Shown: positions 31,963 to 51,002 of the stretch, in pieces | Layout of the letters: every line of letters begins with the position of its first letter | How positions within the stretch are numbered: the first letter of the stretch is position 1 | Assembly (NCBI GenBank): GCA_017500935.1 | Contig: JAFVXW010000029.1 | Span: forward strand, 186,001 to 250,000 | DNA from: Lachnospiraceae bacterium | GTDB lineage: Bacteria > Bacillota > Clostridia > Lachnospirales > Lachnospiraceae | DNA length: 64,000 bases | Direction: 5' to 3' | Position numbers and translations under genes: made by a program | The notes under the pieces: model-generated | What the model was told of the DNA's origin: nothing | Databases searched by the model: none | Seen by the model: the letters and a program-made list of their open reading frames with translations, nothing else

Positions 31963-32112
31963 GTGAAAGAATATATTGAAGAACGGGCGATGGCGGTCGC
32001 CGGGTATATTATCGATTGCAATGCGACGGTGAGACAGGCGGCAAAGCAGTTTGGGATCAGTAAGAGTACGGTACATACGGATGTGACACAATGGAACGGT
32101 TTTGGTGGGTGA
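31963..32112 (+). pseudogene. spoIIID: spoIIID, 5' portion (interrupted by the 18.8-kb element)
   Basis: From GTG at 31963 (GGGGGT site upstream) the frame reads VKEYIEERAMAVAGYIIDCN, then ATVRQAAKQFGISKSTVH. This is the N-terminal half and recognition-helix region of SpoIIID, the small HTH regulator of mother-cell sporulation genes. After His38 (codon 32074-32076) the frame enters the element and ends after 11 foreign codons at 32110-32112. The missing C-terminal half lies at 50853-51002. Family members begin with nearly the same MHDYIKERT-type sequence. Confidence 0.9.
32092..32104 (+). repeat. Left recombinase-arm repeat
   Basis: TGGAACGGTTTTG, inverted with respect to 50821-50833; 15 bp from the ACAT core. 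Likely one half of the recombinase binding site in the excised circle. Confidence 0.75.
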
Positions 32113-32151
32113 TAATATGATTATCAGATAAGAATTATACCATAGGTATTA

Positions 32152-32180
32152 TTGACAAGAATTTGAGCAAGCAGTATGCT
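32152..32180 (+). promoter_or_regulatory. Strong promoter of the leader region
   Basis: Perfect TTGACA (32152-32157), 17-bp spacer, TATGCT (32175-32180). It is the first promoter inside the element and reads into the leader peptide and the acetyltransferase. Confidence 0.75.
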
Positions 32181-32207
32181 TTAGAAAAAATAAAGGAGTA
32201 CCATCGA

Positions 32208-32270
32208 ATGAAAAACGTACATCATACAATGAATCATATGTATATGCATTACGGACGTATTTGTTCGTGA
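32208..32270 (+). CDS. Putative 20-residue leader peptide
   Basis: MKNVHHTMNHMYMHYGRICS, with AAAGGAG 9 bp before the ATG and a strong promoter 28 bp further up. It contains four His and four Met. Its stop codon lies in a 7-bp inverted repeat (GTGACTG/CAGTCAC, 32267-32306). A terminator follows at 32383, before the acetyltransferase gene. This order suggests translation-controlled attenuation. No homologue is recognised. Confidence 0.5.
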   Translation: MKNVHHTMNHMYMHYGRICS

Positions 32271-32332
32271 CTGTAAGAATCTGATGAAGGATGCGCAGTC
32301 ACAGCAATTAGGTCTGATTTGTCTGTGCATAT

Positions 32333-32368
32333 AATTCGGATGATGTAGGTTTTATCGATTTTATATAA
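32333..32368 (+). pseudogene. Remnant of a HAD-family gene 3' end
   Basis: The frame reads NSDDVGFIDFI and stop, resembling the C terminus SNDDDGIADYL of the HAD gene ending at 36796. In both places the stop codon is followed by one base and then the same 48-bp repeat. Upstream frames carry stops, so only a scrap of the gene is left. Confidence 0.45.
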
Positions 32369-32369
32369 C

Positions 32370-32417
32370 TACATGTGAAGACATGCACCAGACATTTCAT
32401 TTGTTTGGTGCATTTTT
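32370..32417 (+). repeat. 48-bp direct repeat, copy 1
   Basis: Identical over 48 bases to 36798-36845. It contains a complete rho-independent terminator (see 32383). Confidence 0.9.
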
Positions 32418-32418
32418 T
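32383..32418 (+). terminator. Rho-independent terminator before the acetyltransferase
   Basis: 11-bp stem ATGCACCAGAC with GTTTGGTGCAT (32403-32413), one wobble or mismatch, then a run of six T. It stands 75 bp before the GNAT start and downstream of the leader peptide. Confidence 0.8.
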
Positions 32419-32492
32419 ATTGTTTTGCAAATGATAAGCCAAACGAGAAAAACTAGCATTATCACAGTTGAGGAAAGGAGCAGAAGAAAATT

Positions 32493-32960
32493 ATGGTACG
32501 GTTTGCAACAGAAAAAGACATTGAAAAAGTCAATGATTTGAGGAGACAAGTCAATGAGATTCATGTATTGGGACGTCCGGATATTTTTAAAGCAGGTTTT
32601 GGCAGGGAATTGCAGGATTTTGTATATATGCTGCTCAATGATGAAAACAAGGATATTCTGGTCGTTGAAAGAGTGGGGGTAATCTGTGGTATGGCGTGTG
32701 TTGACTATGTTTGTAGACCGGAATCGCCGTACATGATAGCAAGGAATTTTTATCACGTTCAGGAGATAGCTGTGGACGAAGCTTTCAGACGCCAAGGAGT
32801 TGCCAGAGAATTATTTGAATTTATGAAAGAAGATGCCAGCAGGAGAGGTCTTGATAAAATTGAACTGGATGTATGGGCTTTTAATGAATCTGCAATAGAA
32901 TTTTATGGGGCAATGGGATTCAGAGAAACGAGAAGATGGATGGAGTACAAATTAAACTGA
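32493..32960 (+). CDS. GNAT-family N-acetyltransferase
   Basis: A 155-residue acetyltransferase. Acetyl-CoA motif A is seen as EIAVDEAFRRQGVARELFEF, followed by the C-terminal NESAIEFYGAMGF that is typical of GNATs. The substrate is unknown; it could be an antibiotic, peptide or protein N-terminus. AAAGGAG precedes the ATG. It is the first cargo gene behind an attenuator-like leader and lies 15 bp from the metallohydrolase gene. Confidence 0.9.
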   Translation: MVRFATEKDIEKVNDLRRQVNEIHVLGRPDIFKAGFGRELQDFVYMLLNDENKDILVVERVGVICGMACVDYVCRPESPYMIARNFYHVQEIAVDEAFRRQGVARELFEFMKEDASRRGLDKIELDVWAFNESAIEFYGAMGFRETRRWMEYKLN

Positions 32961-32975
32961 TTGGAGGAACGTGAT

Positions 32976-33821
32976 ATGAAGTTAAAAATAATTGGTTCCG
33001 GCGGCTGTGTCAGTACGCCAAGACCGTGCTGTACATGTCCGGTGTGTGTGGAGGCACGTGAAAAAGGTTTTCCTTATGCAAGAACGGGATGTAGTTTATT
33101 GATAGAGGATGCTAATATTTTGATCGATACACCGGAGGATATCAGTTATGGGTTAAACAATGCGGGAGTTGGGACGATCGATTATATTCTCTATAGTCAT
33201 TGTGATCCGGATCACACGATGGGAATGCGTGTGATTGAACAGCTTAAGATGGATTGGCTGGAGGTGTCTTTGGGGAAGAATGTTCAAAACCCCGTTAAAA
33301 TAGCAGCTTTGCCGACGATATTAGATGATATCAGACTTCAGAGAACTAGATATGGATCTGTATTGAATTACTATGAAATGAGAGGTCTGGCAGAAACAGA
33401 AGCATTATATGAACTGGATATAAACGGGATAAAAATAGAATTGATTCCAATTGATGATGCAGAACATGTTGCGATTTTTCTGATATCGGATGTACATAGA
33501 AAAGTGATTTATGCCCCCTGTGATGTGAAACCATTTCCTGAGTGTCCAAAATTTTACGGAGCAGATTTGATGATTATCGGAAATACAATTATCGGAGAAA
33601 CCTTGAAAGGCGGATTTGCATTGAGTACAGATAATCCACTCAGAAATGAGTTGTTTGTAATGGAAGAGGTGGTTGAAATACAGAAGAAGTACAATATTAA
33701 GGAAGTAATCATCACGCATATCGAAGAAGACTGGGGAAAGTCCTATGACGATTATAAAGAACTGGAAAAAAGATATCAGGGAATTCGCTTTGCATATGAT
33801 GGGATGGATATACCATTGTAG
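32976..33821 (+). CDS. PhnP-like metallo-beta-lactamase-fold hydrolase
   Basis: A 281-residue MBL-fold protein. The opening KLKIIGSGGCVSTPRP is followed by a CCTCPVC cluster found in PhnP-type cyclic phosphodiesterases, then the metal motif SHCDPDHTMG. The C-terminal THIEEDWGKSYDDY supplies a late His. The ATG at 32976 has GGAGG upstream; an in-frame TTG at 32961 is weaker. It probably cleaves a small phosphodiester or a modified nucleotide, with the substrate unknown. Confidence 0.85.
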   Translation: MKLKIIGSGGCVSTPRPCCTCPVCVEAREKGFPYARTGCSLLIEDANILIDTPEDISYGLNNAGVGTIDYILYSHCDPDHTMGMRVIEQLKMDWLEVSLGKNVQNPVKIAALPTILDDIRLQRTRYGSVLNYYEMRGLAETEALYELDINGIKIELIPIDDAEHVAIFLISDVHRKVIYAPCDVKPFPECPKFYGADLMIIGNTIIGETLKGGFALSTDNPLRNELFVMEEVVEIQKKYNIKEVIITHIEEDWGKSYDDYKELEKRYQGIRFAYDGMDIPL

Positions 33822-33921
33822 TTAGATTCGCCTATTGTGATAATCGATTCGCAAATTGATCGGCAGACGAATCCCGCTACTGATTGTTATGATTAAGAAA
33901 AAAGAAAGGCGGTATGTTAAT

Positions 33922-35034
33922 ATGATTCATTTTAAACTTGCAGAGCTTCGAAAAAAGAATAATCTTACACAGCAGGAACTGGGAGATATTCTGAATGTTT
34001 CTTATCAGACGATCAGTAAATGGGAGAATAGCGTAGTATTCCCAGACATATCTGTTTTACCTCAGATCAGCAGCTATTTTGGGGTATCTGTCGATGCGTT
34101 GCTTGGTCTGGTTCCTTTAGGAGAAGAATATTCTCCGTCAAATTCAGGAACAGTAGAATATTGGAACCAAAGATTGGATTATCTGAAAATGACGCGTAAG
34201 AGTATGTGGAATGAGGATTATTTTCAGTTTTTGATTACGGCTGTGTGGAACATAAATAAACCGATAACTGTTCTGGATTGTGGATGTGGATATGGAGCCT
34301 TAGGGTTATTGATTATGCCGTTATTGCCGGAAGGAAGCAAATACACTGGAATCGATTTTTCCGAAACCATGATTGAGTCAGCAAAAAAGATATACCGGGA
34401 TTCCGGGATAAGTGCAGAGTTTGTTCTTTCTGATATTTTATCTTATCAGCCCAAAGAAAAATACGACATGGTTATCAGCCAAGCGGTATTGCGGCATGTA
34501 GATGATGGAGAAAGGTTTTTGCGAAAAATGGCAGAGTTCTTGAAGAAAGATGGTATTTTGGTCAGCATGGAATGCAATCGGGAGTTTGAGGCAGACGGGT
34601 TGTATATCAGAGGAATGGATTACAGCCGATTATGTCAACATGAAGGATTGAATAAACTATGGCAAACAGAACTGCAGAGGCAAAACAGAGATTATTCTAT
34701 TGCGATGAAAATTCCCCATTATATGAAGAAAATGGGATTGAAAAATATTTCCACAAGAATGAATGACAGGGTAACTTTTTTAGAACCTGAACAGGAGATG
34801 TATGATGAACTACTGGAAAGTATCATCAAAGCAGATTATTGGGATGATGAAAAAACAGATGCAGAAATCGAAGCAGATATTTCTTATTTTATGAATCATG
34901 GAATGAGCAGAAAAGAGGCAGAAGATTATTGCCGACAGCAAAACGGTATTGTGAAATACTTAAAGAAGAACAGAGAGAAAGCAGCAATTACGAAAGCTAC
35001 GGGATATATGATATCTTATGGGTGGAAAGTATAA
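33922..35034 (+). CDS. XRE-HTH/SAM-methyltransferase fusion 1
   Basis: A 370-residue protein. Residues 5-65 are a Cro/C1 HTH (LRKKNNLTQQELGDILNVSY, then QTISKWENSVVFPDI). Residues about 115-240 are a class I methyltransferase (VLDCGCGYGALGLL, GIDFSETMIESAK, and DMVISQAVLRHVDD). The start at 33922 is chosen because it begins the HTH and has AAAGGCGG nearby. It is one of three such fusions in the element. Each probably binds DNA and methylates a small molecule or protein; nothing indicates a DNA methylase. Confidence 0.85.
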   Translation: MIHFKLAELRKKNNLTQQELGDILNVSYQTISKWENSVVFPDISVLPQISSYFGVSVDALLGLVPLGEEYSPSNSGTVEYWNQRLDYLKMTRKSMWNEDYFQFLITAVWNINKPITVLDCGCGYGALGLLIMPLLPEGSKYTGIDFSETMIESAKKIYRDSGISAEFVLSDILSYQPKEKYDMVISQAVLRHVDDGERFLRKMAEFLKKDGILVSMECNREFEADGLYIRGMDYSRLCQHEGLNKLWQTELQRQNRDYSIAMKIPHYMKKMGLKNISTRMNDRVTFLEPEQEMYDELLESIIKADYWDDEKTDAEIEADISYFMNHGMSRKEAEDYCRQQNGIVKYLKKNREKAAITKATGYMISYGWKV

Positions 35035-35047
35035 AAATATGCAGTAA

Positions 35048-35096
35048 GGTTGAATTCAAAGGCGGGGCAAAAGACTCCCCGCTTTTGGATTCAACC
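35048..35096 (+). promoter_or_regulatory. Long perfect-type hairpin between methyltransferase genes
   Basis: 20-bp arms (35048-35067 and 35077-35096) pair with only two G-T positions around a 9-nt loop. No T run follows, so it may stabilise or process the mRNA rather than terminate it. Confidence 0.5.
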
Positions 35097-35186
35097 GGTG
35101 GTAGAGTAAAAATATATGATTAAACTATCCAGTTATTGGTTTAACGATCTTTTTGATATATGGTTATATCAGGAGGTGGCGTGAAG

Positions 35187-35996
35187 ATGAATATAGGATC
35201 GGTTATACTGAATAAAAGGAAGGCGCTTGGTTATACGCAGCAAGTTTTGGCTGATAAACTGCATGTTTCATTTCAGGCTGTTTCGAAATGGGAGAATGGA
35301 ACAGCTTATCCAGAAGTAGAATTACTTCCGGTTATAGCTGCAATATTGGGAATCAGCGTAGATGCACTTCTTGGGTATCGTTCAGCGGTGGTTACAGAGT
35401 ATGAGAATCGATATCAGACAGAGGATTATTATTGGGGAGTGGTTCCGAATCGTTTATGCTATGAAATTATGAAATTGCGGCCGCCTATAAAACCATTGAA
35501 AGTTTTGGATATGGGGTGTGGAGAAGGAAAAGATGCCGTATTTCTCGCCAGAAACGGATATATTGTGTCAGCGTTTGATGTATCAGACTCCGGGCTTGAA
35601 AAAGGAAAAAGAATGGCTGAAAAATGTGGGACTTATGTGGATTTTTTCAAGGCAAACATATTAGATTATCGGCTGTCTGAGAATTTTGATATTATTTTCA
35701 GCAGTGGAGTGTTTCACTATATTGCTCCGAATATACGAACTGAGATAACAGAGAATCTGAAGCAGTATACAAATAAAAAGGGAATCCATGCGATAAATGT
35801 ATTTGTGGAAAAACCATTCATTGAACGCGCTCCGGATGAAGAAGCAGCGGAAAGATATCATTGGAAATCAGGTGAACTTTTTACATATTACCATGATTGG
35901 TTATTGTGGCGGACTGAAGAAGTTATTTTTGACTGTAATAGCGGTGGGAAACCGCATCAACATTGCATGGACATTATGATTGCGGAGAAAAAATAG
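35187..35996 (+). CDS. XRE-HTH/SAM-methyltransferase fusion 2
   Basis: A 269-residue protein: HTH at residues 3-60 (LNKRKALGYTQQVLADKLHV, then FQAVSKWENGTAYPE) and a TehB-like methyltransferase at about 95-230 (VLDMGCGEGKDAVFLARNGY and IIFSSGVFHYI). ATG at 35187 has AGGAGG 10 bp upstream; GTG at 35181 is an alternative. It shares layout but little sequence with fusions 1 and 3. Confidence 0.85.
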   Translation: MNIGSVILNKRKALGYTQQVLADKLHVSFQAVSKWENGTAYPEVELLPVIAAILGISVDALLGYRSAVVTEYENRYQTEDYYWGVVPNRLCYEIMKLRPPIKPLKVLDMGCGEGKDAVFLARNGYIVSAFDVSDSGLEKGKRMAEKCGTYVDFFKANILDYRLSENFDIIFSSGVFHYIAPNIRTEITENLKQYTNKKGIHAINVFVEKPFIERAPDEEAAERYHWKSGELFTYYHDWLLWRTEEVIFDCNSGGKPHQHCMDIMIAEKK

Positions 35997-36013
35997 AAGG
36001 AAAATCTCAGAAC

Positions 36014-36796
36014 ATGGATAAAAAAGTTTTGTTATTTGATTTGGATGGAACTTTACTCCGAAGTGATAAAAGTATTTCGAAGTACACGTTAAATGTTCTT
36101 CATAAATGCAGAGAACAGGGATATTTGATAGGGGTAGCCACTGCCAGGAGTGAAAAGAATTCGGAGAAATTTGTAAAGGAACTCTGTCCGAATATCGTAA
36201 TATCTTGTGATGGTGCGCTTGTGAAATATAATGATGTTTATATTTATATAGCAGAGTTTACTGTTGATGAAACAAGAAACATGATTGATACTGCAAGAAA
36301 GATATGCGGAGAAACATGTGAAATTACCATTGATACAGTGAATGAACATTATTGGAATTATAAGATCGACCCTAAAGAATTTGATGACAGTTGGGGAGAT
36401 ACCATATATACAGATTATGGAGATTTTAATAATAAAGCACTAAAATTTTGTGTTGAAATATTGGAACCAAACAAGGCACTGGAATTGGCGAAAATGTTAA
36501 ATGAGTGCGATTGTGTTAAATTTTCGGATTCCGCTTGGTACAAATTTACTCAAAAATCTGCCACCAAAGAAAATGCAGTAAGAAACTTATGCGCGAAATG
36601 CAAGATTTCTCCGGCCAATATCATTGCATTCGGAGATGATTTGGTAGACATGGGGATGCTAAGATTTTGTGGGAAAGGAATTGCTATGGGGAATGCAGTG
36701 GATGAAGTGAAGAACATAGCAGATTTGGTAATCGGAAGTAACGATGATGATGGAATAGCAGATTATTTGGCTGAAAGTTTTATGGAACTTTTATAG
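36014..36796 (+). CDS. HAD-superfamily (Cof-type) phosphatase
   Basis: A 260-residue HAD hydrolase. Motif I is LLFDLDGTLLRSD; motif II is GVATARSEKN; motif IV is IIAFGDDLVDMGML near the C terminus. Cof-type members dephosphorylate small molecules such as sugar phosphates or flavins. The ATG at 36014 follows AAGGA. It lies 17 bp after fusion 2, and its stop is one base from the second 48-bp repeat. Confidence 0.9.
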   Translation: MDKKVLLFDLDGTLLRSDKSISKYTLNVLHKCREQGYLIGVATARSEKNSEKFVKELCPNIVISCDGALVKYNDVYIYIAEFTVDETRNMIDTARKICGETCEITIDTVNEHYWNYKIDPKEFDDSWGDTIYTDYGDFNNKALKFCVEILEPNKALELAKMLNECDCVKFSDSAWYKFTQKSATKENAVRNLCAKCKISPANIIAFGDDLVDMGMLRFCGKGIAMGNAVDEVKNIADLVIGSNDDDGIADYLAESFMELL

Positions 36797-36797
36797 T

Positions 36798-36845
36798 TAC
36801 ATGTGAAGACATGCACCAGACATTTCATTTGTTTGGTGCATTTTT
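36798..36845 (+). repeat. 48-bp direct repeat, copy 2, with terminator
   Basis: Identical to 32370-32417. It carries the same 11-bp terminator stem with a run of five T. It begins one base after the HAD stop codon. Confidence 0.9.
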
Positions 36846-37053
36846 GGTTTTACTATTGAGTCAGGAAAGTATTATTACAATTTGGATGTAAAAGATGTAA
36901 GTACATCTGGAAATCATGGATTCAGAAAATTTTTCAAAGTTGTTTTCGGTGATTTTTCGCAACTATAGGTTTCCCAAAAAAACTTTAAAGTTGGTGGAAT
37001 AAATAATGAGAACTCTGTACAATTAACTTTATAAATACGTCGGAGGATTATTT

Positions 37054-37671
37054 ATGAAGTTATCTGAAAAAATAGTAGAATTACGGAAAGTAAATGGAAT
37101 GACTCAGGAAGAACTTGCATCCAGGTGCAATGTAAGCAGACAATCCATATCCAAGTGGGAGGCAGATATTGCCTTGCCGGAAACTGAAAAATTGTTGATG
37201 CTGGGTGACATATTTCATGTTTCTATGGATGTGCTGTTAAAGGACGAACTGATATTAAGTGAAGTTAAAGAAGTACATACCTGCGGGCATAATGCAATTC
37301 AGAGAAAGAAACAGGAAGTGTTCGAAGGTGTGCTGATTAAAGAAAGTTTATCGGATGACACCATTATAGATTTGATAAATGTTCATAAGATAGAATTATG
37401 GAATACTGGAGGAAAACCAAAGTATTGGACTGTATTATTTTTTACCAGTGATATAAAGGATTTTCCGGAGCAAATAGCCAGAGTAATGCGTGAAGATTCT
37501 GATAATGATGGTAACTGGTTTGTTGATTTTAAGTCGGGAAATATAAAGTATATTGTATTCAAAGATAAAATATTAAAATATCATATTGGAAATCAAACTG
37601 AAAAAATGAATGTATGTGCTGAATGCAGAAAATTGGGAATTTCCGATGAAGAAATGAAGTGGTCAGAATAG
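37054..37671 (+). CDS. XRE-family regulator with unknown C-terminal domain
   Basis: A 205-residue protein with Cro/C1 HTH at residues 3-60 (LRKVNGMTQEELASRCNVSR, then QSISKWEADIALPE). The C-terminal 135 residues are unrecognised and contain a HTCGH near residue 77 and CAECRK near the end, possibly a metal site. CGGAGG precedes the ATG by 6 bp. The peptidase E-like gene starts 8 bp downstream. Confidence 0.85.
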   Translation: MKLSEKIVELRKVNGMTQEELASRCNVSRQSISKWEADIALPETEKLLMLGDIFHVSMDVLLKDELILSEVKEVHTCGHNAIQRKKQEVFEGVLIKESLSDDTIIDLINVHKIELWNTGGKPKYWTVLFFTSDIKDFPEQIARVMREDSDNDGNWFVDFKSGNIKYIVFKDKILKYHIGNQTEKMNVCAECRKLGISDEEMKWSE

Positions 37672-37679
37672 GAGAAGGC

Positions 37680-38234
37680 ATGAGAGTATTATTAACATCT
37701 GCTGGTTTGGAAACTGAGAAGATAAAAGAGTATTTCATAAAAATGTCAGAAAAAGATATGTTGGATGTAAAGGCTTTATTTATACCGACTGCGGCTATAG
37801 ATCCAGGAGCAATTGCAGTGTTGCCAAAATGTATGAATGATTTGTTGAGGTGTGGTATCCAAGATAAAAATATCAAAGTTTTTGACTTATATACCGGAAT
37901 AAATTTAGATGAATTATTGAAATACGATGTGGTATATATCTGCGGTGGAGATACCAATTATTTGTTGGAAAGAGTTAATGCAACAGGGTTTGGCATGACA
38001 TTAATGGAGTACATTAAAGCAAATGGAATGGTAATCGGTGTGAGTGCGGGAAGCCTTATTTTCGCAAACAATTTGCCGGATAATTTAGGTCTGATAGATA
38101 CAAAGCTGGAGGTACACTGTCCTGAAGGGGAAAAGAGTGGTAAATTGAAATATCCTCTAAAGGATAATTTGAGATTGACAAATACCAGCGCTCTCGCTAT
38201 GTGGGGATTTCCGGATGGATTAGAAGTAATTTAA
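37680..38234 (+). CDS. Peptidase E-like (S51) protein
   Basis: A 184-residue glutamine-amidotransferase-fold protein of the dipeptidase E family. The nucleophile elbow GVSAGSLIFANN has the Ser of S51 peptidases; YICGGDTNYLLE and LEVHCPEG (candidate His) are also seen. It is shorter than typical PepE (about 230) and ends soon after SALAMWGFPDG, so it may be a trimmed form. ATG at 37680 has GGAG; next to the XRE gene. Confidence 0.8.
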   Translation: MRVLLTSAGLETEKIKEYFIKMSEKDMLDVKALFIPTAAIDPGAIAVLPKCMNDLLRCGIQDKNIKVFDLYTGINLDELLKYDVVYICGGDTNYLLERVNATGFGMTLMEYIKANGMVIGVSAGSLIFANNLPDNLGLIDTKLEVHCPEGEKSGKLKYPLKDNLRLTNTSALAMWGFPDGLEVI

Positions 38235-38245
38235 AAACAAGAAGA

Positions 38246-38270
38246 AGCCGGCAAAAAAGCTGGCTTTTTT
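38246..38270 (+). terminator. Rho-independent terminator
   Basis: AGCCGGC (38246-38252), an A6 loop, GCTGGCT, and a run of six T, 11 bp after the peptidase E-like stop. Confidence 0.8.
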
Positions 38271-38415
38271 GATGGGGCAATTTGGGGGAGAAATCTACAA
38301 TCACTTTTTCTATCCCCAAATGGTTGACACTGGTAAAAAATAATTCCATTGTATGTTCACTTTTCTTGAAGTAAAATGAAGACCAAAACATTTGTTGTGA
38401 GGAGGTGATTGACTG

Positions 38416-39387
38416 ATGGACATGAACATATGTCAGACGATAAAGAAGCTTCGCCTGAGCAGAAATTTAAGCCAGGCTACTTTAGCGAAGGCACTCGGTG
38501 TTTCCACACAGTCGATCAGCAAATGGGAGAACCAAAAAGCATTGCCGGATATCATGCTTTTGCCAGAGATTGCCAGGTTTTTTGAGGTTTCTATTGATGA
38601 TTTGTTTATGGGAAATATTGTGGCAAAAGATATTTTGCCTGCGAGTATCAGCGATAATATTTCAATTAATCATATTGCATGGGATGGGATTTCATCAGGA
38701 AACTGGACAGGAACAATACTTCCTGAGTGGGGAGTTTATATACCGAATGAAGAAACACTTCACTTGTTGGAAGATATTCCGGGAAAGAAAGTTTTGGAAA
38801 TCGCCTGTGGAGATGGACAGTCGCTGGTCTATTGTGGGAAAAAAGAGGTGAAAGAGTTATGGGGGCTGGATATCTCAGAAGTACAGATTCGGAAAGCGAA
38901 GAAGCTGATGAAAGAAAACGGACTTAGAGCCAATTTATATCTTTCTCCGATGGAAACCAATCCGGGAATTCCGGAACATTATTTTGATTTTATTTATTCT
39001 ATTTATGGAATTGGCTGGACGCAGGATCTTGAAAAGACTATTTCATGTGTGGCGAAATATTTAAAAACCAATGGTATCTTTGTTTTTTCTTGGGACAATC
39101 CGATGATCTCTTGTATCGACACTATTAATGGACAGTATGTAATGACCAGGTCCTATGTAGATGAATGGAAAGTACGACGTAAACAGCGTGGAGAAACGGT
39201 GGTTTTAACAAACTGGAAGCTTGCATCTTATGTGAATTTGCTTGCAAAATATGGTTTCAAAATTGAACGTTTGATTGAAGATTCCAGTGAAGTTAGCGAG
39301 AATGTGATCTTTACAGAAGAGTACTATTCGGAACACAAAGCCAGATATATTCACCATACATTTGTGATCAAAGCCAGAAAGCTATAG
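38416..39387 (+). CDS. XRE-HTH/SAM-methyltransferase fusion 3
   Basis: A 323-residue protein: HTH at residues 6-65 (LRLSRNLSQATLAKALGVST, then QSISKWENQKALPD) and a class I methyltransferase at about 110-260 (VLEIACGDGQSLVYCG, GLDISEVQIRKAKKLM, and YIYSIYGIGWTQD-type strand). GGAGG lies about 10 bp before the ATG. A foldback TTTGGGG/CCCCAAA and a TTGACA lie upstream, so it starts a new transcript. It is followed 8 bp later by the ABC exporter, which it may regulate. Confidence 0.85.
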   Translation: MDMNICQTIKKLRLSRNLSQATLAKALGVSTQSISKWENQKALPDIMLLPEIARFFEVSIDDLFMGNIVAKDILPASISDNISINHIAWDGISSGNWTGTILPEWGVYIPNEETLHLLEDIPGKKVLEIACGDGQSLVYCGKKEVKELWGLDISEVQIRKAKKLMKENGLRANLYLSPMETNPGIPEHYFDFIYSIYGIGWTQDLEKTISCVAKYLKTNGIFVFSWDNPMISCIDTINGQYVMTRSYVDEWKVRRKQRGETVVLTNWKLASYVNLLAKYGFKIERLIEDSSEVSENVIFTEEYYSEHKARYIHHTFVIKARKL

Positions 39388-39395
39388 AGGGCGAA

Positions 39396-42714: not shown

Positions 42715-42796
42715 TATGATGTTATACGGTGGCATAAACGATATAGGGATGGCCGTTCTTTTGATGGTTAGAATATTTTGTGCTAATGTGCAAGCA

Positions 42797-42905: not shown

Positions 42906-42919
42906 AACTTTATTTTTAC

Positions 42920-42950
42920 TTGACTCTCCCCTCAACTGTAATGATATAAC
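42920..42950 (+). promoter_or_regulatory. MerR-type promoter with 19-bp spacer
   Basis: TTGACT (42920-42925), 19 bp, TATAAC (42945-42950). The overlong spacer is characteristic of promoters that MerR proteins activate by DNA distortion. It lies 38 bp before the MerR gene, so autoregulation is likely. Confidence 0.75.
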
Positions 42951-42988
42951 CAAATTGCAGATATAATTAATTAGAAAGGGGCTACGAT

Positions 42989-44179: not shown

Positions 44180-44238
44180 ATATTATGATTGAAAAGAATT
44201 TGACAGAAAAACTCCAATTGAACTGAATAGTATATGTC

Positions 44239-44276
44239 AAAAAGGAGCAAGGTTAAGATATACTTTGTTCCTTTTT
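44239..44276 (+). terminator. Terminator after MerR gene
   Basis: 14-bp stem (44239-44252 with 44263-44276, two wobbles), A-rich left arm and T-rich right arm. Confidence 0.65.
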
Positions 44277-44372
44277 ATTGAGTATTTATTAATAACAAAT
44301 CAATGGGTCAGTTATACAGATCAATACTTATTTCGGACAGAGAGTTAGAAAAATATTATATTACTTTTACAA

Positions 44373-44402
44373 AGCTGGGTGAAAAATCACCTGGCTTTTT
44401 TT
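44373..44402 (+). terminator. Rho-independent terminator
   Basis: AGCTGGGTG (44373-44381), a 6-nt loop, CACCTGGCT (two wobbles), then a run of seven T. Confidence 0.75.
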
Positions 44403-44542
44403 GTCAAGCCACAAATTGGGTCCCTAAATGGGGGTAAGGGACACTACCAGTACGCCGAAATAAAAGTAATTATAATTTATAATATACACACACCCATCTA
44501 ATGGAACGAAAAACATATCCGAAAACTTAAGGAGGTTGTTTC

Positions 44543-45055
44543 ATGGAATGTTATTTTATGCAAGTAGAAACACAATTACCGATATATTATCCATTGCCCA
44601 AATTTATTCTGAAATTAAAAATTTCCAGTACAGCGAAAATATTGTATTCATTGCTGCTGAACAGAATGAACCTCTCACAGAAGAACGCATGGGAGGATGA
44701 GAGCGGGAATGTATTTATTGTGTATCCGTTGGAAGAGTTGGCACGGGATATGGATAGGGGAATGACGGCAATAAAAACGGCATTAAACGAATTGGGAAAA
44801 ATGGGATTGGTAGAGCGAGTGCGTCCTGAATTTGGCAGGGCAAATCATTTGTATGTCAAAATTCCACAGGATGTGGACATGGTCGGAAAACCGCCTGTAG
44901 TAAGGTCAGAAAACCGCCTTTCAGTTGGTCAGAAAACCGTCTCTAAGATAGCCGGATTTCAGCCTCCTAATAACAATACAAAATTACTTTACGGAAATAA
45001 CCAGAGAGAGATAGGGTATGTGGATTATTCATATGAGGAAGGTGAAAGTCTGTGA
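44543..45055 (+). CDS. RepA-like replication initiator, ICE type
   Basis: A 170-residue protein resembling the N-terminal domain of RepA replication initiators from Gram-positive plasmids and integrative elements: YYPLPKFILKLKISSTAKIL, LLNRMNLSQKNAWEDESG, and a winged-helix segment LARDMDRGMTAIKTALNELG. It probably binds the element's origin in the excised form. AAGGAGG lies 7 bp before the ATG. Its stop overlaps the next start. Confidence 0.85.
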   Translation: MECYFMQVETQLPIYYPLPKFILKLKISSTAKILYSLLLNRMNLSQKNAWEDESGNVFIVYPLEELARDMDRGMTAIKTALNELGKMGLVERVRPEFGRANHLYVKIPQDVDMVGKPPVVRSENRLSVGQKTVSKIAGFQPPNNNTKLLYGNNQREIGYVDYSYEEGESL

Positions 45056-45900
45056 GAGTTACAGATAAAACGGTTGAGAGAAGTATAATGGCAGAAACCA
45101 GTGACTATAGGGGAAACGATGGGGTACTACATTGTGGGATTTGTCATGAGGCAAAAGAAGCATTTTATCCCGCTGGGATGGAGTGGCTTGGAAAGAAAAA
45201 ACATCCGCGGATGTGTGCTTGTTACAGAGAAGAATGTGAACAGGAAGAAAAGCGGGTACGGCATAAGGAACATGAACTGTTTGTGGAACGGTTGAGGGCC
45301 AATTGTTTTTCAGCATCTCATATGTACAGATGGTGTTTTCGGAACGACAATGGCAGAAATCCTAAAATGAAAATAGCAAAAGAGTATGTTGATGCCTGGG
45401 AGGAAAATGAAAAAGGAAATCGGGGTCTGCTCTTTTGGGGAGGAGTTGGTACAGGGAAATCTTTTATGGCAGGATGTATTGCCAATGAACTGCTGGAAAT
45501 TGAAGTTTCCGTGCGTATGACAAATTTTGCAGAAATTCTGAATGAACTTAACCGTTCTGATACGGATCGGAATGCATATATTCAGAAATTGTGTAAATTC
45601 AGATTATTGATCATAGATGATTTGGGCATGGAACGTGGGACTGATTATGGTATGGAGCAGGTTTACAATGTGATCGATGCCAGATATCGTTCCGGAAAGC
45701 CTTTGATCGTTACAACAAATCTATCGCTGCAGGAAATGAAAAATGAGACAAATATGGCACGAAAGCGTATTTATGACAGGATTTTGACTATGTGCATTCC
45801 TGTTCAGATACAGGGGACCAACATGCGGCAGGAAGAACAGCGGGAGAAGTTCAGGGGATTTTCGAAATCTATAGGACTATTTCAAAAACAGGATTCATAG
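45052..45900 (+). CDS. DnaC/IstB-like ATP-binding helicase loader
   Basis: A 282-residue AAA+ protein. An N-terminal zinc-type cluster (HCGICHEAKEA ... MCACYREECE) is followed by Walker A FWGGVGTGKSF and Walker B LLIIDDLGMER, then sensor VTTNLSLQEM. It probably loads replicative helicase together with RepA. The GTG start overlaps the RepA stop (GTGA). Typical neighbour set of integrative elements. Confidence 0.9.
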   Translation: MRVTDKTVERSIMAETSDYRGNDGVLHCGICHEAKEAFYPAGMEWLGKKKHPRMCACYREECEQEEKRVRHKEHELFVERLRANCFSASHMYRWCFRNDNGRNPKMKIAKEYVDAWEENEKGNRGLLFWGGVGTGKSFMAGCIANELLEIEVSVRMTNFAEILNELNRSDTDRNAYIQKLCKFRLLIIDDLGMERGTDYGMEQVYNVIDARYRSGKPLIVTTNLSLQEMKNETNMARKRIYDRILTMCIPVQIQGTNMRQEEQREKFRGFSKSIGLFQKQDS

Positions 45901-45942
45901 GATTGGACAAAGGTTAAACAAGAAGGAGGTGGATGCTTCGCT

Positions 45943-46119
45943 GTGAAGAAACGAAAATTGAATTATCGCTTTCATAATCCCAATACAGTAGAAGCAACCG
46001 CTGATGTTTTATTAAAAGTTTTTATTGAAGCGAATTCGAAAAAGGTGGAAAATGCAATTCAGGAAGCTGCGGAGCAGATTTCGGGAGAAAACAAGTCTGA
46101 TGAGGGGCATTCGGCGTGA
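45943..46119 (+). CDS. Small ICE-associated protein
   Basis: 58 residues from GTG at 45943: VKKRKLNYRFHNPNTVEATA, then DVLLKVFIEANSKKVENAIQ. Proteins of this RKLxYRFHNPN type regularly follow repA/dnaC genes in gut integrative elements, function unknown. AAGGAGGTGG lies 10 bp upstream. Too short for routine ORF calling. Confidence 0.75.
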   Translation: MKKRKLNYRFHNPNTVEATADVLLKVFIEANSKKVENAIQEAAEQISGENKSDEGHSA

Positions 46120-46167
46120 TATGTGTCGGATGTCCTTAATTTTTTTGTTTTTGAGAATTACAACGAT

Positions 46168-46192
46168 ATATATGAGATAAAATCTCATATAT
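46168..46192. promoter_or_regulatory. Perfect 11-bp inverted repeat, operator candidate
   Basis: ATATATGAGAT (46168-46178) and its complement (46182-46192) with a 3-bp centre end 2 bp before the -35 of the defence-pair promoter. A dimeric regulator bound here would control or sense at that promoter. Confidence 0.65.
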
Positions 46193-46194
46193 TG

Positions 46195-46222
46195 TTTACA
46201 AAATATAAAAATAGGATATAAT
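46195..46222 (+). promoter_or_regulatory. Promoter of the AbiL-like pair
   Basis: TTTACA (46195-46200), 16 bp, perfect TATAAT (46217-46222), 37 bp before the ATPase start. Confidence 0.7.
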
Positions 46223-46258
46223 AAAATATGAAAAGGAATAAAAGTGGAGGTGACGATT

Positions 46259-47482
46259 ATGTTATGCCAATTTACCGTAAAAAATTATAAAAGCATTAGA
46301 GATGAAGTGACTTTCGATATGCAGGCTGCGGCAATTTCTGAACACGAAGATAAAATAATTACAGATAGAGATGGAGAAACGTTTTTACCCGTTTCTGCAT
46401 TGTATGGACCTAATGGTGGGGGTAAATCAAATGTGTTGGAAGCTCTGCATACATTAGCAGCGAAAGTACTCCGTCCATTATATGCAACTGGCGATAATGA
46501 TGAGCGTGTCTTTCTTCAGAGGAAATTGATTATTGAACCTTTTGCTTTTTCGGAAGAAGCAAAAAGTGAACCGACAGAATTTGAAATCTTTTTCCGTACA
46601 GAGATGGCGGAATATAGATATATCCTGCACGTGAAACGTGATACTGTTGTTTATGAAAGTCTGGATCGAGTGAAGTTAGATACAGGAAGAAGATCAGCAT
46701 TGTTTGAGCGTGATACAGAAATTGCATTAAAAGGTGGATTTGCTAAGTTAAAGATTAGTGATGAATTATCATCTACATTGCCTCTGTTGTCATATCTTGG
46801 AATCACATATAAGAAGAATGAAATTGTAAAAGATGTTTTGGAATGGTTTGAATACGGAATTGATTTCCTGAATTATGGCAATCCAATAGAAGAACTTCGG
46901 ATGGCAGTATCCAATTCGGATGATGTAAAACAGTTGATGTTAGATATGATTCAGGAAATGGATTTAGATATTGTAGATTTCCGTGTAACTGAAGACGAAA
47001 ATGACAAAATAGACGTATATACAAAACATCGGGTAGAAGGATATGAAACGGAACTGAATTTGCTGGAAGAATCCAGTGGTACCAAGAAGTTATTTGGATT
47101 AATGCCTTTTATTGCTGCAAGTTTATTAAATGGAACTGTTCTGGTGATTGATGAATTGGATGCTAAAATACATCCGGTATTGTTACGGCATATTATTATG
47201 ATGTTCAGTGATATGGCGATCAACAAGAAAAAAGCACAGTTGATATTTACATCCCATGATTTATCTACTATGAACAGTGAAGTGTTCCGTAGAGATGAAA
47301 TTTGGTTTGTGGCGAAAGGAAATGCTCAGAATTCTAAGATATATTCCCTTGTAGAGTTTAAAAATGAAAAGGGAGAGTCTGTTCGCAAGGATGCAAAATT
47401 CGATAAACAGTATCTTGAAGGAAAGTATGGGGCGGATCCATACCTGAGAAGAATTATAGATTGGGGGAAAGTTAATGCCTAA
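46259..47482 (+). CDS. OLD/AbiLi-type AAA15 ATPase (abortive-infection pair, gene 1)
   Basis: A 407-residue ABC-type ATPase of the AAA15 class. The N terminus MLCQFTVKNYKSIRDEVTF is typical of RloA/AbiLi/OLD proteins. Walker A is YGPNGGGKSN, the signature is EESSGTKKL, Walker B is VLVIDELD and the switch His is in TSHD. The ATG at 46259 has GGAGG upstream; an in-frame GTG at 46244 lies before that site. Its end overlaps the RloB-like gene by 8 bp. Two-gene AAA15 plus RloB systems (lactococcal AbiL) block phage; this looks like one. Confidence 0.88.
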   Translation: MLCQFTVKNYKSIRDEVTFDMQAAAISEHEDKIITDRDGETFLPVSALYGPNGGGKSNVLEALHTLAAKVLRPLYATGDNDERVFLQRKLIIEPFAFSEEAKSEPTEFEIFFRTEMAEYRYILHVKRDTVVYESLDRVKLDTGRRSALFERDTEIALKGGFAKLKISDELSSTLPLLSYLGITYKKNEIVKDVLEWFEYGIDFLNYGNPIEELRMAVSNSDDVKQLMLDMIQEMDLDIVDFRVTEDENDKIDVYTKHRVEGYETELNLLEESSGTKKLFGLMPFIAASLLNGTVLVIDELDAKIHPVLLRHIIMMFSDMAINKKKAQLIFTSHDLSTMNSEVFRRDEIWFVAKGNAQNSKIYSLVEFKNEKGESVRKDAKFDKQYLEGKYGADPYLRRIIDWGKVNA

Positions 47483-48170
47483 AAAAGCAGAAATGGAGAA
47501 GTGGAAAAAGAAGCGCCGCCAGGAGCATCTGGAATTAAAGAAATACCGCTACTATATATTCTGCGAAGGCCAGCAGACAGAACCTCAATATTTTGCAGGA
47601 TTTAAAAAGCTCATAGAAGAAAATCCAGTGTATAAGGACATGGTTCTGATTGGGATAGAACCTTGTCAGGCGGAAACCATGCGTGTAATTGGTATGGCAG
47701 AGGAATATGTGAGAAAAAATAAAATAAAAAAGGGACAAATTTGGTGCGTTTATGATAAGGATAGCTTTCCTCCGGAACGCTTTAATGGAGTTGTAGAACG
47801 GGCTGAGAGTTTGAATAAAGAGAATCCTGAACTGCAGTATCACACCGCATGGAGTAATGAGTGCATTGAGTTCTGGTTTCTGTTGCATTTTGCCTACTAT
47901 ACTGCAAATAATCATCGATCAGAGTATATTTCTTTTCTGAATAATAAGTTCAGAGAATTAGGAATCGGGAAATATCAGAAGAATATGAAGAACATTTTTG
48001 AGATTCTGATGGATAAAGGTAATCCAAAGGTGGCAATTCGGTACGCAAAGAGGATATATAAAGAAGGGGAATATAGAACGCCAACTGAAATTGCTCCGGG
48101 GACGAAGGTGTATGAGTTGGTTGAGGAACTGGCGAAGTATTTGCCGGAGGAAGTGAAAACAAGGTTTTAA
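47475..48170 (+). CDS. RloB/AbiLii-type effector with Toprim-like motifs (gene 2)
   Basis: A 231-residue RloB-family protein. Toprim-like residues are visible: a Glu in YIFCEGQQTEPQYFAGF, a DxD in WCVYDKDSFPP, and a CIEFWFLLHF motif later. An N-terminal Lys/Arg-rich segment KKRRQEHLELKKY precedes the fold. In PARIS and AbiL-type pairs the partner effector is a nuclease held in check by the ATPase; the same is inferred here. Start overlaps the ATPase stop. Confidence 0.88.
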   Translation: MPKKAEMEKWKKKRRQEHLELKKYRYYIFCEGQQTEPQYFAGFKKLIEENPVYKDMVLIGIEPCQAETMRVIGMAEEYVRKNKIKKGQIWCVYDKDSFPPERFNGVVERAESLNKENPELQYHTAWSNECIEFWFLLHFAYYTANNHRSEYISFLNNKFRELGIGKYQKNMKNIFEILMDKGNPKVAIRYAKRIYKEGEYRTPTEIAPGTKVYELVEELAKYLPEEVKTRF

Positions 48171-48218
48171 CGGAAACATCTGTGATAATAAGGCTAAAAT
48201 AAGGAGGGGTAAGGTATT

Positions 48219-49052
48219 ATGATTGAGTATACAAAAGATATTGTGATGAAAATGTGTAATGATCCATTATTGCTTGGAGTGCTGGCTATATTAAGTATTG
48301 TGATTTCGATAGTGGGAATAATTCCAGCTTTTAGAGGAAGAAGATTATCGTACAGAAGGTTAGATTTCCCTTTTTTGAAAGCCTCTTTTGGTAGTGATGC
48401 TCTTAAAAAAGTGTTTGTGGAACCAATAGGGCAAATAGCAGGTGTAGAGTTTGCAATTTGGAATAGTGGAAGAAAATACATTAATTGTAGTGATATGGCA
48501 AGAAAGGAACCACTGCGGATAGTTGCACTAAATGGTAGCAAAATTTTACAGGGGGAATTGTCATATTCATCATGTGAATATTGTGATGTGAATTGTATCA
48601 TTAATGAGAATCAAAAAGAAATATTGATTGATTTTGATTATTTAGAATGCGAAGAAGGTTGTATTGTAAATGTAGTTTATGAAGGTAATAAAGAAGATAT
48701 TAAGGTGTTGGGAGTTATAAGGGGAAAAAAGCAAATAGAGGATTCGCAGTCTGTAATGGAATGTTTCAAACGAAACAAGATAATTTATAAAGTGTTAACA
48801 TCCAAGGCGTTTAGTTGGATAGTAATTTTCTTTTGCTATTTTATGTGCCCAGTAGCATTCTTGCAGTCGGGAAATTTTTGGGCTATAGAAAACAATTTTT
48901 TTGATATTCCAAATACATTAGGTGGAAGAATAGTTGATTTCATTGTAATGGGACTTTTAATATTGTTTTCGATAGGGGTCTCGATACCGTTTGCTATGCG
49001 TTTGTTTAAACCTAGATTTCCAAAGGATTTAGAGTCTCACTTTGGAAAATAG
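48219..49052 (+). CDS. Membrane protein of unknown function next to the defence pair
   Basis: 277 residues with an N-terminal membrane segment (about 17-37) and two near the C terminus (about 200-220 and 242-265). Between the first and second is a beta-rich domain of about 140 residues: LSYRRLDFPFLK, VEFAIWNSGRKYINCSDMAR, EPLRIVAL, and ILIDFDYLE. Similar beta-domain membrane proteins are widespread with no known role. It lies 48 bp after the RloB gene on the same strand, so it may be an associated sensor or effector. Confidence 0.75.
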   Translation: MIEYTKDIVMKMCNDPLLLGVLAILSIVISIVGIIPAFRGRRLSYRRLDFPFLKASFGSDALKKVFVEPIGQIAGVEFAIWNSGRKYINCSDMARKEPLRIVALNGSKILQGELSYSSCEYCDVNCIINENQKEILIDFDYLECEEGCIVNVVYEGNKEDIKVLGVIRGKKQIEDSQSVMECFKRNKIIYKVLTSKAFSWIVIFFCYFMCPVAFLQSGNFWAIENNFFDIPNTLGGRIVDFIVMGLLILFSIGVSIPFAMRLFKPRFPKDLESHFGK

Positions 49053-49112
49053 TTAACTAAAGGTGATTTTTATACACTTTTCTCAATTTTCTAGGAGGAA
49101 AACCAAGTGTTC

Positions 49113-49157
49113 AACCAAGGCATTATTGAATGATTTCGATAATGCCTTGGTTTTCTG
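49113..49157 (+). terminator. Rho-independent terminator
   Basis: 14-bp perfect stem AACCAAGGCATTAT with 49139-49152, then TTCTG; ends the defence block. Confidence 0.75.
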
Positions 49158-49185
49158 TTTACAATCCCCTATTTCACGATATAAT
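49158..49185 (+). promoter_or_regulatory. Promoter of the serine recombinase
   Basis: TTTACA (49158-49163), 16 bp, perfect TATAAT (49180-49185). It is a vegetative-type promoter, and no SigE/SigK-type sequence is evident. Confidence 0.65.
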
Positions 49186-49219
49186 AAAGATGTAACAGAA
49201 CAATAAAGATATAACAGAA
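49183..49219 (+). repeat. Tandem 18-bp repeats at the recombinase promoter
   Basis: AATAAAGATGTAACAGAA (49183-49200) recurs at 49202-49219 with one mismatch, period 19 bp, covering the start of transcription. Possible binding sites for the recombinase itself or a regulator. Confidence 0.5.
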
Positions 49220-49231
49220 AGGTATCCATAT

Positions 49232-50854
49232 ATGAACATCGCAGCATACTGCCGTGTCTCCACCGACACAGCCGATCAGTTAAACAGTCTGGAAGCGCAG
49301 AAAGAGTTTTCCTCCGAATATACAAAACGCACCGGTGACATCTTAGTTAAATTATATGCAGATGAGGGCATTTCCGGAACCAAAATCAAAAATCGTAAGG
49401 AATTTCTTCGCATGATGGCAGATGCGGAGAAGGGATTATTTGATATGGTGGTGGTAAAAGATATTTCCCGTTTCGCCAGAAATACAGTGGATCTGCTGCA
49501 GAATGTCCGTAAATTAAAGGCTCTTGGCATTGAAACCCAGTTCCTGACAGCCAACATGACCAGTATGGGCAACAGCGAATTTGTTCTGACCATTTTTGGA
49601 GCATTAGCCCAGGAAGAAAGCGCCAATACCTCCAAGCGTGTGAAGTTTGGGAAGAAAATGAATGCAGAAAAAGGGCGGGTTCCCAACATTGTATATGGTT
49701 ATGACAAAACAATCGGAGATTATTTCAATTTGGAAATCAATGAGGAAGAGGCGAAGGTTGTAAGACAAATTTATGAATGGTACATAAGAGACGGACATGG
49801 TGCCCTGAAGATTGCGAACATGCTCAATGAAAAAGGCTATAAGACAAAGCGCAACTGTAAGTGGAGCCAGAATGCCATTTGTCGTATCCTGACCAATGAG
49901 ATTTATACAGGAAAGATCATTAACGGAAAACAGGAAGTAAGCGATTTCCTGACAGGACAGAGAAAAGAGAAAGATGAAACAGAATGGTATGTGGTGGAAC
50001 GTCCGGAAATCAGAATTATTGATGATGAATCTTTTGAACGGGCACAGGAGATCATGCACGGGCGGTATGATGCGTTCAAACTTACCCATGAACGGGAAAG
50101 CAATAAATATTTGTTTTCAACGCTGATTAAATGTAAGGAGTGTGGATGGTCTTTCCGCAGAACAGTTCGTACCTACAAGAATACGTATGTGCGTTGGGTT
50201 TGTTCCGGCAGAAACGGAAAAGGGGCAGACAGCTGTCCCAACAAAACAACAGTAGATGAAGAGGAACTGATCGAAGTTCTGCAGGAATATTTTGCAAATG
50301 TATTGAAGCAGAAGAAAAAGGTTATCAATTATGTAGTGAATGAATTTCAGCGGGTTTATAAAGCGAAGGACGAAAATCTGGAATACGAAAAGGAACTGAA
50401 CGTACAGCTTACTAAACTGAAAAAATCCCGTGAAAAATATATGGATATGTATACCGATGATCTGATTTCCAGAGAGGAATTAAATGAAAGAATCGGTGGA
50501 ATGCGTAAGGAAATCGAGCGTCTGGAAAATGAACTGAAAATGGTGTCTTATCATCTGACCAAAGGCAATCAATTGGAAGCAATCCTGAATAATACCTTTA
50601 AAACCATCGAAGATATTACGGATGTACATCAGATGACGAATATACAGTTGAAGAAACTGATTCAGAAGATTGAAGTGGATAAAGATGGAAATGTGGATAT
50701 TTATCTGCGTTTGCTGGGAGATTTGGGATTGGATGAGACCATACTGATAGAGGATGCTCCTGGCAGTAATCACAATGATACTTGTGAAGAGGAGGGTATT
50801 GGATTTGAAATAAACACTGTCAAAACCGTTCCAAATGGTAACGACCACACATAA
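49232..50854 (+). CDS. Large serine recombinase of the element
   Basis: A 540-residue recombinase. The catalytic Ser10 is in AAYCRVSTD; the resolvase domain (about 1-150) has DMVVVKDISRFARN. The recombinase domain (about 160-270) and a zinc ribbon (CKECGWSF ... CSG ... SCPN) follow, then a coiled coil (about 375-440). It resembles TnpX/SpoIVCA-type recombinases. Its TAA stop (50852-50854) spans the right junction, so after excision the gene would lose this stop and gain 14 codons. It is the likely integrase and excisionase of the element. Confidence 0.93.
   Translation: MNIAAYCRVSTDTADQLNSLEAQKEFSSEYTKRTGDILVKLYADEGISGTKIKNRKEFLRMMADAEKGLFDMVVVKDISRFARNTVDLLQNVRKLKALGIETQFLTANMTSMGNSEFVLTIFGALAQEESANTSKRVKFGKKMNAEKGRVPNIVYGYDKTIGDYFNLEINEEEAKVVRQIYEWYIRDGHGALKIANMLNEKGYKTKRNCKWSQNAICRILTNEIYTGKIINGKQEVSDFLTGQRKEKDETEWYVVERPEIRIIDDESFERAQEIMHGRYDAFKLTHERESNKYLFSTLIKCKECGWSFRRTVRTYKNTYVRWVCSGRNGKGADSCPNKTTVDEEELIEVLQEYFANVLKQKKKVINYVVNEFQRVYKAKDENLEYEKELNVQLTKLKKSREKYMDMYTDDLISREELNERIGGMRKEIERLENELKMVSYHLTKGNQLEAILNNTFKTIEDITDVHQMTNIQLKKLIQKIEVDKDGNVDIYLRLLGDLGLDETILIEDAPGSNHNDTCEEEGIGFEINTVKTVPNGNDHT
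50821..50833 (-). repeat. Right recombinase-arm repeat
   Basis: CAAAACCGTTCCA, the exact inverse of 32092-32104, 15 bp from the right ACAT core. It lies within the last codons of the recombinase gene. Confidence 0.75.
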
Positions 50855-51002
50855 AGACATCACCGAGCGCTTGGAATCCATCAATCCATCCTTAGCCCGG
50901 CAGGCCAGAACCGTGTTGGATGTTAACAAATCCGAACGTCACATCCGCGGCGGTCTGGCGACCAGAGAAAAATATCTGCATCACAGTGCAAAAACGATGT
51001 GA
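50853..51002 (+). pseudogene. spoIIID: spoIIID, 3' portion
   Basis: The frame reads KDITERLESINPSLARQART, then VLDVNKSERHIRGGLATREK and YLHHSAKTM, stop 51000-51002. This is the C-terminal half of SpoIIID, including the HIRGG motif. It continues in frame from codon 38 of the 5' portion after removal of the element. A local ATG at 50835 could start a 55-residue fragment, but has no clear ribosome site and lacks the HTH. Confidence 0.9.

Follow-up and report, generated by a model that had tools for sequence, protein, structure and literature searches.

How can a sporulation gene that has been cut in two by a mobile element still serve its host? This question is raised by a stretch of 64,000 nucleotides from a Lachnospiraceae bacterium (assembly GCA_017500935.1, contig JAFVXW010000029.1, positions 186,001 to 250,000), referred to here as the window, in which spoIIID, the gene of a small DNA-binding regulator, is interrupted by an element of 18,776 bp. 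The answer that we favour, with a probability of about 0.74, is that this site-specific element would be excised in the mother cell under the control of sigma-E, with the help of a directionality factor of 58 residues, and that its departure would rebuild the gene. The parts of the locus on which this proposal rests are the following, with positions counted from the first letter of the window.

31905..31934, forward strand: promoter-like pair of the split spoIIID (GGTCTAA, 15 nt, CATACAAT); sister genomes have CATACAAT or a near form at this distance as well
31963..32076, forward strand: 5' half of spoIIID, 38 codons with a GTG start; PF12116 (Pfam SpoIIID), 66.1 bits, profile positions 1-42 of 82
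32073..32077, forward strand: core ACATA of the left attachment site, attL, from a comparison of the element ends
32077..50852, forward strand: mobile element of 18,776 bp, delimited by the attachment sites and the in-frame join
32092..32104, forward strand: left attachment arm TGGAACGGTTTTG, an inverted repeat of the right arm; similar in most other spoIIID elements
49232..50854, forward strand: large serine recombinase of 540 residues with Resolvase, Recombinase and zinc-ribbon domains, its stop codon TAA lying across the attR core
50821..50833, forward strand: right attachment arm CAAAACCGTTCCA; similar in most other spoIIID elements
50849..50853, forward strand: core ACATA of the right attachment site, attR, from the same comparison
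50853..51002, forward strand: 3' half of spoIIID, 49 codons (50853-50999) and the stop; PF12116, 67.4 bits, profile positions 38-80 of 82

Both halves score far above the PF12116 cut-off of 27 bits, and joining 32076 to 50853 in silico gives a single open frame of 87 residues that resembles the SpoIIID of sister genomes. A preliminary description of the window had claimed that spoIIID is split into parts of 38 and 49 codons, that removal of 32077-50852 restores one frame, and that the element brings its own large serine recombinase, and on all three counts it was right. The insertion point lies at the His-Lys codons of the SpoIIID helix-turn-helix. The exact crossover may lie anywhere within the 5 bp of ACATA present at both ends, and the element measures 18,776 bp regardless. 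The 13-bp arms just inside the ends are perfect inverted repeats, and the reconstructed circle junction has 20 palindromic matches out of 30, compared with a mean of 13.0 and a maximum of 20 in 2,000 random stretches of the window. The same description had pointed to a second, intact spoIIID and to strains lacking the insertion as things to look for. No second SpoIIID scores above the cut-off in the assembly of the window (3.56 Mb, 95% complete, 5.7% contamination), and a whole spoIIID is present in 11 of the 12 other genomes of the genus, the remaining one (58% complete) being without a match. Precise removal that restores the frame, an internal recombinase, attL and attR ends and the lack of another intact copy are among the features by which a skin-type element is recognised, and the window's element has these.

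Among the 12 other genomes sampled from the genus, the insertion is confined to the lineage of the window; the alignment to the spoIIID locus of the sisters reaches only about 130-150 bp on each side of it. Two observations on these sisters may be recorded here. One carries, close downstream of its intact spoIIID, a piece 81% identical to the AAA gene of the window's element (L008:149-366), perhaps a remnant, and another (G012, locus L090) has an intact spoIIID and, where a different contig ends, an attL with a surplus 5' half in which conserved residues are altered.

The insertion is no isolated case: the window's element is a member of a mobile family whose attachment site in many Clostridia is spoIIID. 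In our survey of 397 genomes of the family Lachnospiraceae, 240 have a SpoIIID match. Match positions were examined for 41 of these and for G012, chosen because the best matches were only weak (28 genomes, that of the window aside) or because there were extra matches (14 genomes); the positions of the remaining family matches were listed in part. Full-length spoIIID is missing in 29 family genomes, that of the window included, and in 27 of the 240, with junctions judged by eye, an attachment-type cut is combined with the lack of a full-length copy. Both halves were found in 21 of these 27 (on one contig and strand in 13), and one half in the other six. Excluded from the 27 are G127, a plain contig break with halves 3-51 and 62-80 at contig ends, and G364, whose junction is of a different and unclear kind. 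Weak full-length matches mistaken for cuts could also be dismissed, since among the 20 family genomes with the next-best E-values 19 are full-length and one (G217) spans the junction and lacks just the first residues.

Outside the family the picture is similar. In a class-wide sample, which includes a few family members, 280 of 391 genomes have a SpoIIID match, and 10 of the 14 low-scoring genomes examined outside the family contain two halves. One of the ten is the single-contig genome G579, in which the halves are 65 kb apart; G567 was set aside because its relatives score alike. A protein search with the recombinase alignment, from which the best 80 loci in titled genome records were kept, led to 39 genomes taken for a spoIIID piece at the locus. 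No full-length SpoIIID was found in 38 of them (both halves in 34, 19 of these with both on one contig and strand; the 3' half alone in 4), the exception being Ruminococcus turbiniformis (L141), which has an intact copy beside the insertion. In two genomes of one genus (G356 and G036; loci L052 and L071), a divergent full-length SpoIIID paralogue stands beside a split second copy. An artefact of assembly or binning, to which the contamination of the window's assembly and the contig break in G127 might point, is scarcely credible when 13 family genomes and 19 others have the two halves on a single contig and strand, and when the halves also lie together in the single-contig genomes G244, with the layout of the window, and G579.

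The association with spoIIID follows the identity of the recombinase. In 12 other genera of the family, 12 recombinases with 80-87% identity to that of the window share its core and have similar arms. Among loci whose recombinase has at least 60% identity, the 3' half of spoIIID lies at most 250 bp downstream in 35 of 43 and at 2.4 kb in one more; the other seven are found at contig ends (L133, L139), on phage contigs with an unbroken phage attachment site, attP (L171-L173), or in other surroundings (L091, L117). The link fades to 3 of 11 at 45-59% identity, two of them at 1-1.7 kb, and to 0 of 6 below 45%. These counts cover 60 of 88 loci, leaving aside 24 at 32-36% identity, a fragment of 63% (L160) and L176-L178 (25-35%); L119, one of the scored loci, and G118 of the family sample are one record.

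Identity is not the whole story: two recombinases of the family set, with 48% (L037) and 44% (L042) identity, still use the same core. An element with three serine recombinases in tandem (L064, L066, L073) cuts spoIIID at a point a few bases 3' of the first site, and junctions of this type also occur in L063, L065, L067, L068 and L088. G579 shows a different arrangement, with the recombinase at the left end. By the evidence of these sequences, recombinases of several lineages have arrived by convergence at almost the same spoIIID codons. A second habitual target possibly exists elsewhere, given that seven recombinases (L130-L132, L135-L137, L140; 42-50% identical to that of the window) lie just upstream of another conserved gene family, with a motif like VDPI...LERxxQ...IPxKEC and no Pfam match in the four of these seven proteins that were scanned.

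The elements also move. Those of L104 and L138 are 97.8% identical over their full length, while identity in their spoIIID flanks is 84.6% over 104 bp and 80.4% over 148 bp; near-identical elements in diverged flanks therefore indicate recent movement between diverged hosts, and vertical inheritance of one insertion is ruled out for this pair. A 119-kb contig of IMG/VR (L171-L173; L242, L243) encodes a recombinase 72% identical to that of the window, the small protein described below, tape-measure and other virion proteins and a further integrase (phrog_216), and has an unbroken attP; there is no SpoIIID on it, and this phage was not seen integrated in spoIIID. A strict attP pattern found no circle junction in viral contigs, a pattern which also misses every fetched locus, including the three phage contigs, and a looser pattern of the left arm found the same three phage contigs and nothing else.

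Such movement, together with the intact sisters of the window, is what would be expected of an ordinary mobile element that uses spoIIID as its attachment site, with no programmed excision and with carriers that either do not sporulate or do so through rare excised cells. We regard this explanation as unlikely. It has to face a cut state as frequent as 27 in 240 family genomes, and it accounts poorly for the second gene that these elements share. Only two genes recur in most of 21 complete elements, the recombinase (21 of 21) and the gene of a protein of 58 residues (19 of 21), reading frames that overlap or derive from recombinases being left out of the count; the next cargo genes reach 5 of 21. 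Where the small gene is missing, in two elements, the recombinases are the most divergent of the set. In the window it has the following parts.

45874..45904, forward strand: promoter-like pair of the small gene (GGACTATTT, 13 nt, CATAGGATT), from a promoter comparison across elements
45943..46119, forward strand: protein of 58 residues, the proposed recombination directionality factor, found in 19 of 21 elements

The protein has no match in NCBIfam or PHROGs and a single, implausible Pfam match below the cut-off, and a search of phage records for relatives found none. Its upstream region is more telling. We take spoIIID and spoIVA to be sigma-E genes in these species as in Bacillus subtilis, and the promoter pair of the split spoIIID is accordingly labelled as of the sigma-E type; its box is near the usual place in 16 of 21 split genes. 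Of 19 small genes, 15 have a pair of the form CTA-N15-17-CATA upstream, compared with 1 of 20 recombinases and 6 of 171 other open reading frames; the strict form GG[AT]CTATTT lies ahead of 9 of the 19 small genes. With a matrix built from spoIIID sites and from 10 spoIVA sites chosen by eye among 20 upstream regions, the small gene has a median score of 7.5 (12 of 19 over 7), higher (p 2e-6) than the 174 other reading frames (median 2.9, 14% over 7). The regions upstream of the recombinase score like the rest (median 2.5, p 0.72, 2 of 20 over 7), and sigma-E control of the recombinase is unsupported for the group.

Based on the promoter pair at the small gene and on the parallel with the skin element of Clostridioides difficile, we infer that the 58-residue protein acts as a directionality factor through which sigma-E triggers excision in the mother cell. 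In the process that we envisage, the large serine recombinase would integrate the element into spoIIID at the His-Lys codons. During sporulation, sigma-E in the mother cell would drive expression of the small protein, which would enable the recombinase to recombine attL with attR; the element would leave as a circle, spoIIID would be rebuilt, and SpoIIID would be made. The mother cell dies, while the forespore would keep the element, so that the split state is inherited. The element would thus ride on sporulation without blocking spore formation.

If this is correct, the split gene should still be in use. spoIVA is kept in 45 of 45 tested genomes without full-length spoIIID (G364 among them) and in 10 of 10 intact controls, compared with 1 of 9 genomes without spoIIID. 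All 16 cut genes that were joined in silico give open frames without stops, and the ratio of nonsynonymous to synonymous changes per site (pN/pS) of the joined halves relative to the nearest intact gene is 0.205 (n=16), where 50 intact genes give 0.153. Synonymous sites are close to saturation, and the insertions cannot be dated in this way. This measure replaces mean counts of changes at conserved positions (1.53 in 5' halves without an intact copy, n=36; 0.22 in intact genes, n=50), which mixed families. The joined halves appear to be under strong constraint, slightly relaxed. Neither the retention of spoIVA nor 16 joined frames under constraint would be expected if the element were an ordinary one, and the same holds for a small gene with a promoter pair like that of spoIIID.

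The low pN/pS of both halves also bears on the idea that these lineages can do without SpoIIID and that the split is neutral, which we consider quite improbable. It is noted that 8 of the 9 tested genomes without SpoIIID are also without spoIVA, so that loss of SpoIIID accompanies loss of sporulation genes. The two spare 5' halves of L051 and L090, whose genomes also have an intact copy, have changed at conserved positions; those of L046-L050 are close to intact, and this argument is therefore weak. Taken together, a skin-like logic is well supported by the anatomy of the locus, that is, by the in-frame junction, the element's own recombinase, the conserved halves, the kept promoter, the presence of spoIVA and the co-conserved small protein with a like promoter.

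Several points weigh against programmed excision. The excision junction, the circle, the transcript and the spore are all unobserved, and excision is what we propose. The promoter tests use related elements, so that the value of 2e-6 is optimistic and overstates their independence; the -10 boxes of the small gene are unlike those of the host beyond CATA, the pair is missing in 4 of 19 small genes, and the window's own recombinase scores 7.2 upstream, passing a level that 2 of 20 recombinases pass. The halves are slightly less constrained than intact genes, as would be seen with a dispensable SpoIIID. With 11 of 12 sisters intact, the window's insertion may be too recent to have been shaped by selection, and its host may be unable to form spores. 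In G687 and G754 (loci L266 and L267), which belong to one genus, the 5' half has the same frameshift behind a run of A; this could be decay, as either an ordinary element or a dispensable SpoIIID would allow, or programmed frameshifting. Finally, 157 of 397 family genomes are without any SpoIIID match, which would suit dispensability, and loss of the halves after insertion would escape notice among them.

A further group of loci can be read in two ways. In L046-L051, an attL relic is followed by an island of about 2.2-7 kb and a whole spoIIID; there is no functional recombinase inside (L051 keeps a fragment), and a stretch of 135-206 bp is duplicated, which extends from the core back across the 5' half and, where it is longer, includes the promoter. 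In L141 the situation is mirrored, the 3' half being the one that occurs twice. That several genomes have a full-length spoIIID next to an attL relic looks as if reliance on excision were costly, in favour of an ordinary element; the relic states of L046-L051 and L141 also fit selection for a working gene.

The ends of the recombinase add a possible refinement to sigma-E-triggered excision. In the window, one more stretch is concerned.

32073..32120, forward strand: stretch predicted to encode a C-terminal tail of the recombinase in the circular form, ending in TGA, from the frame read across the reconstructed circle

In 17 of 21 elements, the recombinase frame stays open as far as the attachment core. 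When integrated, 16 of these 17 frames end at the core, with TAA supplied by conserved spoIIID codons. In the circle, the 17 frames meet a stop at codon 15 in 10 elements, at codons 18-19 in three, earlier in two, and not within the stretch read in two. Stops recur in the shifted frames as well, at codons 3 and 6, but these positions fall in the conserved arm, and conservation of the DNA is enough to account for them. Codon 15 is situated past the arm, and the ten stops there use all three stop codons (TAA, TAG, TGA); a stop conserved in position but not in letters suggests a real protein end, though two of the ten elements (L104, L138) are near-identical. The recombinase copy carried by the phage ends in the long form. 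We tentatively raise, and would sooner doubt than assert, the idea that the recombinase senses its own integration state, being TAA-ended when integrated and bearing a tail of 14-18 residues in the circle, and that two forms of the integrase could set the direction of the reaction: the long form could integrate, and the short form, together with the 58-residue protein, could excise.

The rest of the window's element consists of the following features.

39396..42714, forward strand: cargo, two ABC exporter subunits; best NCBIfam matches below the cut-offs of the families
44543..45055, forward strand: replication initiator of the RepA_N type (PF06970, 4.3e-14)
45052..45900, forward strand: DnaC-like helicase loader, from family profile matches
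46259..48170, forward strand: cargo, AAA ATPase and RloB-like pair, an AbiL-like abortive-infection system by profile matches

The last pair (46259-48170) is a candidate anti-phage system, and related AAA genes occur in four other spoIIID elements. No relaxase or conjugation genes were found in the subset of the window's reading frames whose proteins were scanned, nor virion genes among five window proteins scanned with PHROGs. In the element of G118, which measures 75 kb, a MobL relaxase is encoded along with a TraG P-loop (VirB4-like) protein.

If excision is true, about 1 in 9 of the spoIIID-bearing species sampled in the family would rebuild a mother-cell regulator by excision of DNA, and programmed DNA rearrangement would be common in these spore formers, beyond a few model strains. 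Several recombinase lineages would have converged on one site and adopted the sporulation control of the host to stay harmless, and these elements would offer new pairs of recombinase and directionality factor with defined sites. It would also call for caution in genome annotation, as a spoIIID that seems broken in many genomes may be functional.

How does this system compare with those already known? The interrupted sporulation genes named in the parts of the literature seen are sigK, spsM, spoVFB, gerE, yabG and kamA (PMC5595907, PMC10747680, PMC6957869). An interrupted spoIIID is not named among the matches listed in our literature search, which covered few papers from subscription journals or bioRxiv. 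The main text of a recombinase survey of 2022 (PMC10083194) has sporulation in a reference only, as far as seen, and its supplementary target lists may include spoIIID. As to sporulation of the carriers, the same search gave nothing for Blautia glucerasea, and the single Schaedlerella paper, in the part available, is silent on the subject.

Several elements share with the present case the habit of using a sporulation gene as attachment site: SP-beta in spsM, vfbin in spoVFB and the kamA prophages (PMC10747680, PMC6957869), and yin in yabG of Clostridium botulinum, all with other targets. yin is reported to be unique to one strain (PMC10747680), while spoIIID elements recur in many genera. The gin element in gerE of Bacillus cereus is also a non-phage element that splits a small DNA-binding regulator and has a separate directionality factor; it differs in having three recombinases where the window's element has one (PMC5595907). 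The triple-recombinase spoIIID elements (L064, L066, L073) are like gin in the number of recombinases only.

The preliminary description had likened the locus to skin. That comparison is sound as regards a serine recombinase, a split regulator and its in-frame rebuilding, but the skin of C. difficile is a better fit than that of B. subtilis. In B. subtilis, the recombinase of the skin in sigK is itself made under sigma-E and SpoIIID, and, unlike there, the upstream regions of the recombinases studied here have no such promoter as a group. The likeness lies in a mobile element that splits a mother-cell regulator and carries a serine recombinase inside (PMC6957869). In C. difficile, a constitutive recombinase is reported to excise skin from sigK with a small directionality factor under sigma-E and SpoIIID (PMC5025042). 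The spoIIID elements are alike in having a large serine recombinase without sporulation control, a separate small candidate factor with sigma-E-like promoter, and a mother-cell gene that is cut. They are unlike in their target, spoIIID, which acts earlier than sigK. Moreover, the C. difficile factor needs SpoIIID too, which would be impossible here before excision; since SpoIIID is absent until spoIIID is rebuilt, we propose that sigma-E alone would drive the factor in these elements.

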